Assembly: GCA_017538995.1 (NCBI GenBank) | Contig: JAFYHV010000143.1 | Span: 1-36,556, forward strand | Direction: 5' to 3' | Origin: Lachnospiraceae bacterium | GTDB lineage: Bacteria > Bacillota > Clostridia > Lachnospirales > Lachnospiraceae | DNA length: 36,556 bases | Shown here: piece after piece, positions 22,267 to 29,200 of the stretch | Layout: each line of letters starts with the position of its first letter | Numbering within the stretch: position 1 is the first letter of the stretch | Translations under genes and position numbers: made by a program | The notes under the pieces: generated by a model | Database searches by the model: none | The model's input: the letters and a program-made list of their open reading frames with translations, nothing else | What the model was told of the DNA's origin: nothing

Positions 22267-24567
22267 TTATCTTAAATCTACTCTTCTGATCTTTCCGGAA
22301 ATAGTCTTGGGTAATTCATCTCTGAATTCGACGATTCTCGGATACTTGTAAGGAGCTGTATGCTCTTTAACGTATGTCTGGATTTCTTTCTTAAGTTCTT
22401 CAGTTCCGACTGTTCCCTTTGTAAGAACGATATTGGCCTTTACAACCTGGCCTCTGATTTCGTCGGGAGCTGCAACAACAGCACATTCAAGAACATAAGG
22501 AAGTTCCATGATAACAGATTCGATTTCGAAGGGTCCGATACGGTAGCCGGATGACTTGATAACGTCATCGACACGACCGACATACCAGTAGAATCCGTCT
22601 TCGTCTTTCCATGCTGTATCGCCTGTATGATAGAACCCGTCATGCCATACTTCTTTGGTCTTCTCTTCGTCTTCGAAGTAACCCTGGAACAAACCATTAG
22701 GTACACCGTTCTGAGTACTGATAACGATTTCACCTGTTTCACCGACCTTGCATGGATTGCCGTCGGGATCAACGATATCGATATCGTATAAAGGTGAAGG
22801 TCTTCCCATTGAACCAACCTTGTTGCTTTCGCCTACGAAGTTTGCAATTGAAAGTGTAGTTTCTGTCTGACCGAAGCCTTCCATAATACGTACGCCTGTT
22901 GCTTTAAGGAACTGGTTGTAAACCTCAGGGTTCATAGCCTCGCCTGCAACTGTTGCATACTTGATGGAACTTAAATCATATTTGGTAAGATCTTCTTTTA
23001 TGAAGAATCTGTACATTGTTGTAGGTGCACAGAATGTAGTTATGTTGTACTGCTTGAATAAAGGAAGAATATCTTCAGCTTTAAATTTCTCAAAGTCATA
23101 AACAAATGTAGCTGCTTCGCACATCCACTGTCCGTAGAGTTTGCCCCAGAGTGCTTTACCCCAGCCTGTATCGGCGATTGTGAAGTGAAGTCCGTTAGGG
23201 TCTACATTGTGCCAGAACTTTGCTGTGGGGAAATGTCCCAAAGGATATTTGAAGTTATGAGCAGCAATCTTAGGATATCCTGTAGTTCCGGATGTGAAGA
23301 ACATAAGCATTGTATCGTCGCCGCAAGCAAAATCTTCGGGCTTTTCGAATTCTTTTGAGAATGTCTTAAATTCTTCGTTGAAGTTATGCCAGCCTTTTCT
23401 CTGAAGCCCGTCTACGCATATTTTAATTTTAAGGTCAGGGCATCTTTTAGCAGCAAATTCAGCCTGGTCAGCTACATCGCCCGTACCTGTACAAACGATT
23501 GCCTTGCAGTGAGCTGCATTAAATCTGTATTCAAAATCATGATCCTTTAAAAGATGTGTTGCAGGAATGATGATTGCGCCTAATTTGTGAAGTGCAAGGA
23601 TTGTGAACCAGAACTGATAATGTCTCTTTAATACGACAAGAACCTTATCGCCCTTGCCGATTCCAAGAGACTTAAAGTAGTTTGCAGTCTGGTTGGAATA
23701 TTCGGACATTTCCTTGAAGGTAAATCTTCTTGCTTCCTTAAGCTCGGAAAGATAAACCATTGCCGTCTTGGAAGGATTCTTCTTTGCCATTTCGTCTACA
23801 ATGTCGTAAGCAAAGTTGAACTTCTCTGTATTCTTATATTTGATTCCGTTGAAGATACCGTTTTCATCAACTGTTGTTTCAACAAACTTCTCGTATACGG
23901 GATTTTTGATCTTAGCAAGATCAGTATTGGTAACAGTATGTGTTCTTACTTTATCCTTAACTTCGGAAAGACCCTTCTTCTCAGGGTTCATAACAACTGC
24001 ATAGATTTCACAGTCTTCACCGCCGAGAGCGATTTCGTTGTGAGGAGTGGATGAATCATAGTAGATTGCATCGCCTTCGTGAAGGATTTCTACGGAATCA
24101 CCTACCATCATCTTAAGGTTGCCCTTGATGACAATATCCATTTCCTGACCGACATGTGTATTGAAGTGGTAAGGAGGATTAAGTGCTTCCTCTGAGTAAG
24201 GAATCTTTACGTAAAAAGGCTCAGCGAGTTTGTTCTTAAAATTGGGAGCAAGGTTCTGATACATAAAACCTTCTCTTCTTACGATCTCGCTTCCTTCGCC
24301 TTTTCTTGTTACAACATATTCTGAAAGTGCGGGTGATTCACCTGTTAAAAGGTCATTCATATCAACCTTACAGGTATTTGCAATTTTGTAGATAAATGTG
24401 AAAGGAAAGTCTTCCTCACCTGATTCGTATCTTACGTACTGATCGTAATCAAGACCTATCTTCTTTGCAAGTTCCTGCTGGGAAAGGTTCATAGCCTCTC
24501 TCAAATCAACGATTCTTCGTGCGACCTCATGAATTTTAAATTCAAGATTCTGATTGTTTTCGCTCAT
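22267..24567 (-). CDS. XRE-cupin-acyl-CoA synthetase fusion (AMP-binding family)
   Basis: 766 residues with three modules. Residues about 10-72 are a Cro/CI helix-turn-helix (L-S-Q-Q-E-L-A-K-K-I-G-L). Residues about 115-195 are a cupin, with His138, Glu142 and His176 as likely metal ligands. Residues about 245-766 are an acyl-CoA synthetase that activates a carboxylic acid through acyl-AMP. That module has T-S-G-T-T-G-Y-P-K at 425, G-F-G-Q-T-E-T, Y-H-T-G-D-T, K-S-S-G-Y-R-I-G-P and the catalytic lysine in S-G-K-I-R-R (Lys759). It resembles acetyl-CoA or medium-chain synthetases; the substrate is not readable. XRE-cupin pairs normally bind DNA and a small ligand. AAGGAG precedes the ATG. A T-box leader lies upstream. 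Confidence 0.9.
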   Translation of the reverse strand: MSENNQNLEFKIHEVARRIVDLREAMNLSQQELAKKIGLDYDQYVRYESGEEDFPFTFIYKIANTCKVDMNDLLTGESPALSEYVVTRKGEGSEIVRREGFMYQNLAPNFKNKLAEPFYVKIPYSEEALNPPYHFNTHVGQEMDIVIKGNLKMMVGDSVEILHEGDAIYYDSSTPHNEIALGGEDCEIYAVVMNPEKKGLSEVKDKVRTHTVTNTDLAKIKNPVYEKFVETTVDENGIFNGIKYKNTEKFNFAYDIVDEMAKKNPSKTAMVYLSELKEARRFTFKEMSEYSNQTANYFKSLGIGKGDKVLVVLKRHYQFWFTILALHKLGAIIIPATHLLKDHDFEYRFNAAHCKAIVCTGTGDVADQAEFAAKRCPDLKIKICVDGLQRKGWHNFNEEFKTFSKEFEKPEDFACGDDTMLMFFTSGTTGYPKIAAHNFKYPLGHFPTAKFWHNVDPNGLHFTIADTGWGKALWGKLYGQWMCEAATFVYDFEKFKAEDILPLFKQYNITTFCAPTTMYRFFIKEDLTKYDLSSIKYATVAGEAMNPEVYNQFLKATGVRIMEGFGQTETTLSIANFVGESNKVGSMGRPSPLYDIDIVDPDGNPCKVGETGEIVISTQNGVPNGLFQGYFEDEEKTKEVWHDGFYHTGDTAWKDEDGFYWYVGRVDDVIKSSGYRIGPFEIESVIMELPYVLECAVVAAPDEIRGQVVKANIVLTKGTVGTEELKKEIQTYVKEHTAPYKYPRIVEFRDELPKTISGKIRRVDLR

Positions 24568-24646
24568 GTTTTCTCCTTCATCATAAAAAATGTAATCAAC
24601 GATACGCGTTGAAATCTTAGAGAATTGAGATTAAGGTTTTTACATT

Positions 24647-24900
24647 AAAAAAACCCGTCTCAATTGCTTGAGACGGGCTAACCCGCGGTACCACTCAAAT
24701 TGCATCACTGAAGATGCCTCCTCTTCTGACTCCAACAAGCCAAGTGCCTTAACGTGGCATAACGGGAATTGTCTACTCTTTTCATTTCGGAATTCCAACT
24801 CGGAAGGGATAGCTGAAAGAATTGAATTATCGCCTCACACCAGCCGGCGACTCTCTGAAAATTCGACATCTGACGCAGTCTTCGTCACAGTTTTTAAAAA
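24647..24900 (-). promoter_or_regulatory. T-box leader upstream of the XRE-cupin-CoA ligase gene
   Basis: On the minus strand the Stem I core AGAGAG-TCGCC-GGCTGGTGTGA-GGCGA is clear. The linker AAAAGAGTAGAC follows, then the T-box AGTGGTACCGCGGG (24682-24695). The terminator CCCGTCTCAA/TTGAGACGGG is at 24654-24677 with seven T. The specifier is less certain. By the nine-base spacing to GAGT it is ATC (24810-24808, isoleucine), but C and not a purine follows. GCT (Ala) is a weaker alternative. The leader ends 80 bases before the CoA-ligase ATG, with no gene between. Confidence 0.92.
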
Positions 24901-24921
24901 TAATTTTCAATTGCTTTTTTT

Positions 24922-24950
24922 AAACTAACACTATTTTTTTATTATGTCAA
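24922..24950 (-). promoter_or_regulatory. Predicted promoter of the second T-box leader
   Basis: TTGACA (24945-24950) and TAGTTT (24922-24927) on the minus strand with a 17-base spacer. The -35 is perfect and the -10 is poor. It starts 8 bases past the rpiA stop. Confidence 0.5.
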
Positions 24951-26836: not shown

Positions 26837-28549
26837 TCATTCTTTGTTAGCGCTTTTAGCCTTCTCTTCTTCAATCAATTGAGTAAACGCTACTTTACCC
26901 ACAAGAGTTTTTGGTAGTTCTTTTCTGAACTCATATTCGAAAGGCCAGGAATACTTTGCAAGATTCTTCTCGCAAACATCTCTAATCTTTTGTCTTATCT
27001 CATCTGTGGGCTCATATCCTTCGCGAAGAACGATAAAGGCCTTGGCAACCTGAACCTTAAGCGGATGGTCGATTCCGATGACGCATGATAAAAGTACTTC
27101 AGGTACAGAGTCAATTATATTCTCAAGATACTGAGGATAAATATTATAACCTGAGGAGATTATCATTCTCTTGATTCTCTGCTTAAAGAATAAGAATCCG
27201 TCCTCGTCCATATATCCTAAATCGCCCGTATGAAGCCATACCTTACCGTCCTTGTGTAATCTTAAGGTATTGGCGGTTTCTTCAGGCTCGTTTAAATAGC
27301 CCTTCATAACGGTAGGACCTGATAAAACAATCTCTCCGTCCTCACCGTAAGGCATTTCTTCAAGTGTCTCGGGATTAATGACTTTATAAAATGTATCGGG
27401 ATAAGGGATACCGATACTTCCGGCTTTATATTTGTTAACAGGTATTAAACAGCTTCCTGTAACGCATTCTGTCAGACCGTAACCCTCTCTTACCTTTGCA
27501 TCCGAACCATGCTCTTCGAGGAATTTATCCACCTTTAACTTAAGGCTCTCCGAAAGTGAATCACCGCCGCTTATTACAAGGTGTAAGAATGAAAGATCCA
27601 CACCTTCCATTCTTTTGTTCTTAAGCATTACTTCAAAAAGCGAAGGCACGCCTGCTATAATATTGGGTTTATATTTGGTAAGAAGCTTATCAAATTCAGC
27701 CGCATTAAACTGAGGCTGAATAACTGCCGTTGCACCTAAATACAAAGCCGTATGAATGCAGATTCCGAGTCCGAAACCGTGGAATACAGGCATAATAGAA
27801 AGTATTCTGTCGCCCTCGTGCAAAGTCTTACAAATCTCTACACTCTGAAGCGCAAGCGCATTGAAGTTAAGGTTTGTAAGTTCAATACCTTTCGGAAAAC
27901 CGCTGGTACCGCCGGAGTAAAGTATCGCTGCGGTATCATCTTTGTCAGGCTTATATAAAGTCTCGCCCGTATACTGCTTTCCGTTCTTTATAAAATCACT
28001 CCACTTAATGTTAATGTCACATTTTTCGAAATGAAGTTTTCTGCCCTTCTTAACAAAATATCCAACGATTATGGGCATCGGCATAGAATCTGCCACACTT
28101 ACCTGAATAATCTTTTCAAGTTTGGTTTCGGGTAAAATATGAATAATTTTATTTAATGCAAGATCTACAGTTACAATAATCTTACTTTCAGTCAGGTTTA
28201 CATAATATTTTATTTCATTCTCAGCCGACAGAGGATGAATCATATTTGCAACTGCGCCGATTTTATTAATTGCATAAAAAGAAATAAGAGCTTCGGGAGT
28301 ATTGGGCATACACACACTGATAATATCTTTCGGTTTTACACCCATAGCTATAAAAGAACGTGCAGCAGAATCAATCTGCTCTAAAAACTCTTTAAAAGTT
28401 GCAGTCTTACCAAAGTAATTATATGCATTGAGACTTTCTCTCTTTTTTGATGCCTCTTCCAAAAACTGATATATCGAATAATCTGGATATTCCAGATGTT
28501 GTCTTACTCCGTCATATGACGAATACCAGGGTGTCTTAACCTGTTCCAT
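26837..28549 (-). CDS. AMP-dependent acyl-CoA ligase (fatty-acid type)
   Basis: 570 residues. Activates a carboxylic, probably fatty, acid to its CoA thioester via acyl-AMP. The ATP-binding loop is Y-S-G-G-T-S-G-F-P-K-G. G-Y-G-L-T-E is motif A5, L-H-T-G-D-L-G-Y is A7, and R-M-I-I-S-S-G-Y-N-I-Y-P precedes the mobile C-terminal domain, with catalytic lysine in L-V-G-K-V (Lys552). Unlike the other ligase in this window it has no regulatory domain. AGAAGGA precedes the ATG. It lies 15 bases after the acyltransferase gene, suggesting acyl activation and acyl transfer for membrane lipid. Confidence 0.88.
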   Translation of the reverse strand: MEQVKTPWYSSYDGVRQHLEYPDYSIYQFLEEASKKRESLNAYNYFGKTATFKEFLEQIDSAARSFIAMGVKPKDIISVCMPNTPEALISFYAINKIGAVANMIHPLSAENEIKYYVNLTESKIIVTVDLALNKIIHILPETKLEKIIQVSVADSMPMPIIVGYFVKKGRKLHFEKCDINIKWSDFIKNGKQYTGETLYKPDKDDTAAILYSGGTSGFPKGIELTNLNFNALALQSVEICKTLHEGDRILSIMPVFHGFGLGICIHTALYLGATAVIQPQFNAAEFDKLLTKYKPNIIAGVPSLFEVMLKNKRMEGVDLSFLHLVISGGDSLSESLKLKVDKFLEEHGSDAKVREGYGLTECVTGSCLIPVNKYKAGSIGIPYPDTFYKVINPETLEEMPYGEDGEIVLSGPTVMKGYLNEPEETANTLRLHKDGKVWLHTGDLGYMDEDGFLFFKQRIKRMIISSGYNIYPQYLENIIDSVPEVLLSCVIGIDHPLKVQVAKAFIVLREGYEPTDEIRQKIRDVCEKNLAKYSWPFEYEFRKELPKTLVGKVAFTQLIEEEKAKSANKE

Positions 28550-28564
28550 GTTTAAGTCCTTCTT

Positions 28565-29200
28565 TTAAATAAATTTATCTTTATGTTTTACGAATTTTTC
28601 TTTACGTGGTTTGAAATTGTTTTCAATCATCATTTGCTTTACCGTATCATACAAAAGCTGATTGGCTTCTTCAACGGAAAGATCTTTTATATCAAGCGGT
28701 TCGCCGTATGTAATCTTTAATGTACGGCTTCTGAATTTGTACTCGCCGGTTACTGCATACGGTATCAGCTTACAGCCCGTCCTTTGTGCCATAACAACGG
28801 CTCCGGGCTTAAAAGGAAGCAGTGTTTCTTCGGTAAAGTTTCTCTTTCCTTCAGGAGATACATTTATCGCATAGCCTTTGTTTAAATAATCAATAGCGGC
28901 ATTTAAAGCACCGCCGTTATGTTTTGCCTTTGTATCTACGGGTATCGAGCCTATCGATTTAAACAGCCATCCGAATTTGCCGTCATGCAGTTCCTTGTTT
29001 GCCAGCGAATGCACCACTCTCGGTGTGGATGTGTAGACATATATCGGATCCAGTATGCAGTTGTGATTACCCGCTATTACGCAGGGCTCTTTTTTCGGTA
29101 TTACAGATTTATTCACGTATTTAGGATTGTACAAAAACCAGAAAAGAATCGTAAACAGCGGCTGAAAAAATCTGTAAACAAGCGCGTCGGATGCTTTCAT
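28565..29200 (-). CDS. plsC: 1-acyl-glycerol-3-phosphate acyltransferase (PlsC family)
   Basis: 211 residues. Transfers an acyl group to lysophosphatidate during phospholipid synthesis at the cytoplasmic membrane. It has the H-x4-D motif as N-H-N-C-I-L-D near residue 46 and S-P-E-G-K-R-N for the F-P-E-G-T-R-S motif, with Lys replacing the usual Thr. L-I-P-Y-A-V-T-G follows. An N-terminal hydrophobic stretch (about 10-22) may dip into the membrane. Its ATG overlaps the stop of the upstream gene by four bases (ATGA), implying coupled translation. Substrate could also be another lyso-lipid, since family assignments are loose. Confidence 0.88.
   Translation of the reverse strand: MKASDALVYRFFQPLFTILFWFLYNPKYVNKSVIPKKEPCVIAGNHNCILDPIYVYTSTPRVVHSLANKELHDGKFGWLFKSIGSIPVDTKAKHNGGALNAAIDYLNKGYAINVSPEGKRNFTEETLLPFKPGAVVMAQRTGCKLIPYAVTGEYKFRSRTLKITYGEPLDIKDLSVEEANQLLYDTVKQMMIENNFKPRKEKFVKHKDKFI

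Follow-up and report, generated by a model that had tools for sequence, protein, structure and literature searches.

A T-box leader with an isoleucine specifier upstream of an HTH-cupin-acyl-CoA synthetase gene: probable control of isoleucine synthesis from 2-methylbutyrate in gut and rumen Clostridia

The locus and its fused ligase gene

The window analyzed here is a stretch of 36,556 nucleotides (contig JAFYHV010000143.1) from a Lachnospiraceae bacterium. Its minus strand carries a T-box leader RNA, which is followed by the gene for a multidomain acyl-CoA synthetase (Table 1). A preliminary description had placed an XRE-cupin-acyl-CoA synthetase fusion downstream of the leader, and Pfam finds all of these domains in one open reading frame (ORF) of 766 amino acids (a.a.). 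The predicted model of the protein has a mean pLDDT of 73.5, with most of residues 76-210, as well as residues 466-471, below 50. Elsewhere in the window, another AMP-binding ligase (570 a.a.) adjoins an acyltransferase-family ORF (PF01553) at 26837-29200, on the same strand and upstream of rpiA. A second T-box (18108-17884; 105.3 bits) with the specifier UUC (Phe) lies directly before an ORF that appears pheS-like by eye, which is an ordinary arrangement.

Table 1. Features of the leader and the ligase gene, and loci of related genes referred to in the text
Feature	Position or loci	Strand	Evidence
T-box leader RNA, Stem I to antiterminator	24666..24897	-	RF00230, 98.0 bits
Stem I AGAGAG motif	24851..24856	-	Sequence and Rfam alignment
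Specifier AUC (Ile)	24808..24810	-	Rfam specifier position; ATC in 65/66 aligned leaders
T-box core GUGGUACCGCG	24684..24694	-	Rfam alignment
Intrinsic terminator, 12 bp stem followed by U tail	24652..24679	-	Terminator scan and folding energy
HTH-cupin-acyl-CoA synthetase, 766 a.a., read as 2-methylbutyryl-CoA synthetase	22267..24567	-	ORF, Pfam, NCBIfam, PDB match
HTH_3 domain, residues 21-73	24349..24507	-	Pfam PF01381, 39.5 bits
Cupin domain (Cupin_2), residues 137-191	23995..24159	-	Pfam PF07883, 37.5 bits
AMP-binding domain, residues 258-631	22675..23796	-	Pfam PF00501, 209.7 bits
GKALW, residues 470-474 (G470 splits Ile- and Val-type copies; W474 = MacsMa Trp259)	23146..23160	-	Alignments
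AMP-binding_C domain, residues 681-759	22291..22527	-	Pfam PF13193, 80 bits
T-box-free fused loci	L070, L072-L074, L077-L079, L081-L084, L086-L090, L093, L097
Loci with a downstream ACT gene	L054, L057, L063, L076, L101, L115, L116

The leader RNA

According to a search of the whole window with all Rfam models (cmscan), the leader matches the T-box family (RF00230) at 24897-24666 on the minus strand, scoring 98.0 bits where the gathering score is 93 (E-value 1.4e-20), and its alignment covers model positions 1-219 completely. The preliminary description had proposed a full T-box leader with the Stem I AGAGAG motif, a T-box sequence and a terminator, and had named this covariance model as a check; the match, together with a terminator stem of 12 pairs, bears the proposal out. 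Its extent of 24568..24950 was drawn too wide, however, as the element starts at about 24897 and not at 24950. The UGGU of a T-box pairs with the ACCA at the 3′ end of the tRNA, and the UGGU within the core at 24684..24694 is presumably the partner in this pairing. Beside the specifier, the window has AGCU where the RF00230 consensus is GAAa, and relatives are variable at that place; the GAA beside a T-box specifier has a loop E role.

Three terminator-like sites lie in a 501-base stretch, against a mean of 0.3 in shuffled sequences. The terminator segment has a folding energy of -21.0 kcal/mol (z -3.0), which none of 200 shuffles equals. The competing antiterminator reaches -9.9 kcal/mol (z -1.0), a value that 29 of 200 shuffles equal or better, and by itself is not better than shuffles. 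In the folded structures, the 5′ arm of the terminator is used by the antiterminator, and the two exclude each other. Stem I folded alone matches shuffles (z +0.5), so that its support comes from the covariance model and from conservation. From the end of the terminator stem to the ATG at 24567 there are 84 nt, with a GAAGGAG site recognized by eye, and a sequence scan of the minus strand found no sigma-70-like promoter.

The specifier codon

The leader specifier is AUC (Ile). The preliminary description had made tRNA-Ile its best guess, from ATC at 24810-24808, and this triplet indeed coincides with the specifier in the Rfam alignment. We aligned 66 leaders with MAFFT (the window, seven from a sample of its family, and 58 of the 59 T-box loci among the best 80 of 367 relatives, L039 being excluded with a cut leader); 65 of them have ATC in the specifier columns, and the exception, with GTA, is L013, a second copy that precedes a gene of its own. 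A specifier differing between close relatives had been named as what would refute the proposal, and L013 is the only departure among these leaders. At least three assemblies are present twice (L008/L051, L009/L062, and L011/L103), both in the 66 leaders and in the set of 56 genomes used for ilvC below. The columns were read with no preference for any codon; an earlier script had favored AT[CT]. The bases flanking ATC vary (5′: T 54, C 10, G 2; 3′: C 39, A 26, G 1), and on this ground Tyr (UAU) and Ser (UCC) were dropped as specifiers. A class-wide search, in which overlap with the named loci is likely, fetched 30 loci including the window; an in-register AUC is present in 27 of the 29 others, and of the remaining two, L200 has no T-box and L210 is cut by the contig start.

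Distribution of the fused ligase and its T-box

Full-length fused copies occur in 7 of 150 genomes sampled from the family, and one of these genomes (G075) has two. All seven fused copies of this sample besides the window's have a T-box (74.1 to 99.2 bits, E-value < 1e-13). At an E-value of 0.001, no T-box was found at the three two-ORF relatives in this sample, nor at any of 15 scanned relatives without the fusion (from the 19 loci L014-L031 and L036, of which L031 alone has the fusion, minus L028-L031). In a class-wide sample of 392 genomes, the fused protein, here an open frame of at least 450 a.a., is present in 75, across 23 family codes.

Two peptide patterns found 367 relatives, and the best 80 of these were treated as named loci. 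A T-box core (at most one substitution) lies upstream in 59 of these 80. Among the 21 loci with no core, three have less than 310 nt upstream, and the other 18 (15 Ruminococcus, two Oscillospiraceae and one Alistipes record; Table 1) point to a T-box-free clade of fused ligases in mostly Ruminococcus-labelled records. Several T-box-free fused ligases adjoin CAP/dockerin-type proteins, and some of the same assemblies also have a T-box copy. In seven of the best 80 of 367, the next gene downstream of the ligase, 3 to 461 nt off, encodes an ACT protein (Table 1); in the one that was scanned, the ACT part is similar to the small subunit of AHAS, and an additional part is metallo-beta-lactamase-like by eye. 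Two tandem Clostridiales-1 RNAs (RF01699) lie directly behind the Ile-type ligase of G075 (L148 10209-10526).

A sister branch with valine specifiers and linked vor and ilvE genes

Valine specifiers precede 22 more ligases, and 21 of them form one sister branch. One of the two fused copies of G075 is behind an AUC T-box and the other behind a GUA T-box; downstream of the latter, on the same strand, are ilvE (483 bits, cut-off 307), a P-loop ATPase and three VOR subunits. Within the genus of G075, GUA is found in G211 and in G206, whose contig ends inside the ligase, and GUC in G208. GUA is the specifier in 18 of 20 second-copy regions of other genomes (17 read by script and L237 by eye), and the remaining two are Ile-type. 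A FastTree tree of 138 ligases, 88 of them labelled Ile and 22 Val, requires two changes of label, or one when the G208 copy with GUC is set aside, and the split may go back to one old duplication. Nine matches with an in-frame stop had been removed from this set, seven of which were spans across two separate ORFs, and for six ligases with a T-box that the script overlooked or failed to read, the specifier was assigned by hand before the tree was built. In G208 (L183 9874-7297), the GUC T-box precedes an Ile-type ligase, downstream of which come a Val-type ligase, ilvE and vor; this arrangement is apparently a specifier switch.

The vor genes and a Val-type copy lie on one strand in G075, G211, G208, G209, G526, G243, and G403. 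Here ilvE is found with them in six of the seven, that is, in all but G526, whose fetched piece stops behind vorG, and T-box, ligase, vor and ilvE all lie on one strand in G075, G211, G208, G243, and G403. About 1.9 kb of uncharacterized sequence separates ligase and ilvE in G209, where the T-box is not in view, and G202 is cut within vor. Four of the 20 second-copy regions have vor near the ligase (L227, L230, and L237 on the same strand, L238 divergent), three of them together with ilvE, and the other 16 have none nearby. No Ile-type gene from the group to which the window belongs was seen in an operon with vor.

Relatives of the ligase and its acyl pocket

Among solved structures, 3etc, the Macs enzyme of Methanosarcina acetivorans (MacsMa), is closest in sequence and matches residues 241-766 with 666.7 bits (E-value 4.1e-199). 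The window ligase is likewise an AMP-forming acyl-CoA synthetase, with the pocket Trp and Gly aligned; MacsMa, on the other hand, is archaeal, and its match leaves the HTH-cupin part uncovered. MacsMa favors 2-methylbutyrate as a substrate, has Trp259 as an acyl-pocket residue, and has been studied at Trp259, Tyr460, Arg490, Tyr525, and Tyr527 (PMC10455477). With the offset taken from gap-free alignment blocks and from a motif at 431-435, the counterparts of these five residues in the window are W474, Y675, R705, Y740, and Y742. The top NCBIfam match is MbcS (NF047394; 457.3 bits, below the equivalog cut-off of 850), a model that spans the ligase part only. In Staphylococcus aureus, MbcS acts on 2-methylbutyrate and isobutyrate and supplies fatty acid synthesis, a role unlike the one considered here, from external acids (PMC10026030). 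Judged from these relatives, the substrate of the Ile-type ligases is probably 2-methylbutyrate.

An alignment of the ligases separates the two types at residue 470, which is Gly in 88/88 Ile-type and Ala in 21/21 Val-type copies, and at residue 473, which is Leu in 88/88 Ile-type copies against Met (17), Ala (3), and Ser (1) in the Val-type. Fourteen more columns split the types at 80% or above, including residue 61 in the HTH (Lys in 88/88, Arg in 21/21). The GUC copy of G208 (L183_7297), which was kept outside the Val set of this comparison, has Gly at 470 and Leu at 473, and MacsMa has Gly and Val at the aligned positions. A bulkier side chain at residue 470 would be as expected for the smaller acid, although a single old duplication could also give the pattern.

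The T-box could mainly control the HTH-cupin part, acting as a transcription factor for other operons, with the ligase activity secondary; retention of the HTH and cupin in eight aligned copies, where the cupin residues H138, E142, and H176 are invariant, agrees with this, as does an unfused HTH-cupin protein in a VOR operon of the window's own genome. Yet the position of MacsMa Trp259 is Trp in all 109 ligases compared and other CoA-site residues of MacsMa are kept, and the distant matches of the HTH-cupin profile include not only the regulator 1y9q but also the enzyme 1zz6. Because HTH and cupin occur together in such enzymes, DNA binding should not be assumed, and we regard a primarily regulatory purpose as quite unlikely.

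Related genes in the same genome

The genome to which the window belongs has six T-box matches, including the Ile leader and the pheS leader. By inspection, further ones are of the Thr type (L003), of the Trp type before trpE-like and trpB-like ORFs, and of the Leu type (CUC) before a LeuA-like ORF. Three components of a route from 2-methylbutyrate to isoleucine are present in it: the ligase, a ferredoxin-dependent 2-oxoacid oxidoreductase (VorB, 544 bits, cut-off 399), and an aminotransferase (ilvE, 380 bits, cut-off 250). The oxidoreductase genes lie in an operon of the order ATPase-vorB-vorA-vorC-HTH/cupin-ligase, in which HTH/cupin and ligase are unfused and the ligase has Ala at residue 470; no T-box was found there on its 8.9-kb contig. 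The order vor genes, HTH/cupin, ligase recurs in six of seven other regions (G039 of these with no ATPase; G120 and G160 probably are one assembly), and the seventh, G134, has no vor. G039 also has an ilvB-like ORF 121 nt behind its T-box ligase. The genome retains an ilvB/ilvN-like pair (L245 3259-5382, G000:C102; ilvN by eye).

Two more ligases of this genome were seen in other surroundings. A third homologue (L153 4283-9285, G000:C19) lies behind genes that are fabK-, fabG-, fabF-, and fabZ-like by eye, and has Ala and Ser at residues 470 and 473. At L154 4652-8908 (G000:C138), a Leu (CUC) T-box is followed by a LeuA-like protein, which is below the NCBIfam cut-offs listed, and then by an AMP-binding ligase fused to a xylose-isomerase-like TIM barrel. 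In G209 and G204, fused ligases have a similar pair immediately upstream.

With MbcS as the best NCBIfam match, and with its feeding of fatty acid synthesis from external acids, the ligase could instead make 2-methylbutyryl-CoA as a primer of anteiso fatty acids, in which case the T-box would merely report a shortage of isoleucine, the usual source of this primer. Such a role is unlikely in our view: the Val-type sisters adjoin ilvE and vor, the homologue behind the fab-like genes is a better candidate for the task, and the genome has no match to ilvC and none to ilvD.

Association with missing ilvC and ilvD

The fused ligase is associated with loss of the classical branched-chain amino acid (BCAA) genes. 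In the family sample, where absence means no match better than 1e-5 (11 of 150 genomes), ilvC is absent in 7/7 carriers and in 4/143 others (Fisher p 1.1e-9), and ilvD is also absent in all seven carriers. Across the class sample, 56 of 75 fused carriers lack ilvC, as do 115 of 317 others (p 1.5e-9); both tests ignore phylogeny, and some genomes are incomplete. Within one genus, ilvC is present in 0/7 carriers and 2/8 non-carriers, a comparison that tells nothing either way. A match to ilvC over the cut-off occurs in 17 of 56 carrier genomes, mainly Ruminococcus and Oscillospiraceae records, and ilvD was detected in 11 of 48; G156 (L046), a Lachnospiraceae carrier, has both genes. Since these 17, including G156, keep ilvC, the ligase route is not solely a substitute, and a strict rule of ilvC replacement is ruled out.

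VOR enzymes are reversible, and the oxidoreductase and the ligase could thus serve the breakdown of amino acids, with 2-oxoacids oxidized to acids and the ligase only recycling the acid. IorA is over its cut-off in 52 of 53 genomes searched, as degradation would have it, but this number comes with no control frequency and therefore is not used as evidence. A T-box raises expression when its amino acid is scarce, the opposite of what degradation would call for; the ligase belongs to the AMP-binding type, and such ligases spend ATP; and the seven family-sample carriers lack the ilvC and ilvD genes. Taken together, a degradative role is highly improbable.

Proposed control of isoleucine synthesis

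It is quite likely, in our judgment, that the T-box senses isoleucine starvation and switches on the activation of 2-methylbutyrate, which then feeds isoleucine synthesis by reductive carboxylation and transamination. On isoleucine shortage, uncharged tRNA-Ile would pair with the AUC specifier and, through its 3′ end, with the UGGU. From the known action of T-boxes, the bound tRNA-Ile would stabilize the antiterminator, the terminator at 24679-24652 would not form, and the ligase would be made. The enzyme could then convert 2-methylbutyrate, ATP and CoA to 2-methylbutyryl-CoA, with the acid presumably drawn from excretion by amino-acid fermenters. A ferredoxin-dependent 2-oxoacid oxidoreductase of the VOR or IOR type would reductively carboxylate 2-methylbutyryl-CoA to 3-methyl-2-oxovalerate, and IlvE would transaminate this to isoleucine; we infer these two steps, and the direction of flux, from the linkage of the sister copies to vor and ilvE and from the loss of ilvC and ilvD. 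The HTH-cupin part may tune expression or activity. The sister genes with a Val switch appear to provide valine from isobutyrate in the same manner. With the switch and the ligase, Clostridia of gut and rumen can probably use 2-methylbutyrate excreted by their neighbors to make isoleucine.

Counted against this reading are the shortfall of the MbcS match below its cut-off, the empty promoter scan, the T-box-free clade, the apparent specifier switch in G208, the second-copy regions and the Ile-type genes with no linked vor, the carriers that keep ilvC, the ilvC statistics that ignore phylogeny, the single duplication that may underlie the Ile/Val split, the pocket difference read from alignment in a poorly modelled segment, and the retained ilvB/ilvN-like pair. 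The preliminary description had suggested that charging of tRNA-Ile controls acid activation, perhaps of branched-chain acids made from that amino acid; the evidence speaks for tRNA-Ile and for acid activation, but the acid would be a precursor of isoleucine and not its product. That description does not include the Val-type sister branch, the linked vor and ilvE genes, or the loss of ilvC and ilvD.

Relation to known systems and a possible modular system

Rumen bacteria reportedly form isoleucine and valine from 2-methylbutyrate and isobutyrate, as Robinson and Allison in 1969 and Allison and Peel in 1971 are said to have described. Precursors, products and habitat are the same as those proposed here; that work is known as physiology, and the assignment of genes and of T-box control are proposals of this analysis. 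In rumen physiology, 2-methylbutyrate counts as the isoleucine precursor and isobutyrate as the valine precursor (PMC7356843). The ligases would offer candidate genes for the activation step of a physiology that has been known for decades. The RNA codon would tell which acid each ligase copy uses, with residue 470 as a one-residue correlate in the pocket.

The RNA itself is a T-box, and shares Stem I, the AUC specifier, the UGGU core and the terminator/antiterminator with other Ile-class leaders (RF00230). Its target, in contrast, is an HTH-cupin ligase and falls outside the tRNA synthetases, classical biosynthetic genes and transporters. What is new is that a known switch controls a different kind of gene, and that specifier and pocket change together. 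The words "CoA", "cupin", and "indolepyruvate" are absent from the main text of a survey of T-box targets (PMC2494555), and among openly licensed full texts none was found that links T-boxes with the HTH-cupin ligase or with the isoacid route.

A wider system of modules has, in our estimate, an even chance of being real: an Ile T-box with a 2-methylbutyrate ligase, a Val T-box with an isobutyrate ligase, and a Leu T-box with a LeuA-like protein and a ligase would make BCAAs from excreted isoacids in gut and rumen Clostridia, often replacing lost ilvC and ilvD, and the HTH-cupin part would sense the acid or its CoA ester, as a second sensor next to the T-box, which reads the tRNA of the product. 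The Val module here is the one with VOR and IlvE in several genomes, and the ligase of the Leu module is the one fused to a TIM barrel in the window's own genome. If the modules exist, many genomes now classed as auxotrophic would belong to prototrophs that depend on isoacids, since the route often stands in for the lost genes. Where isoacids are available, BCAA auxotrophy called from the genomes of gut Clostridia may be mistaken.

In G251, all three modules lie within an 18-kb stretch, the third ligase there being a match of 26% only. A LeuA-like gene with a Leu T-box is located between the Val and Ile modules of this genome.
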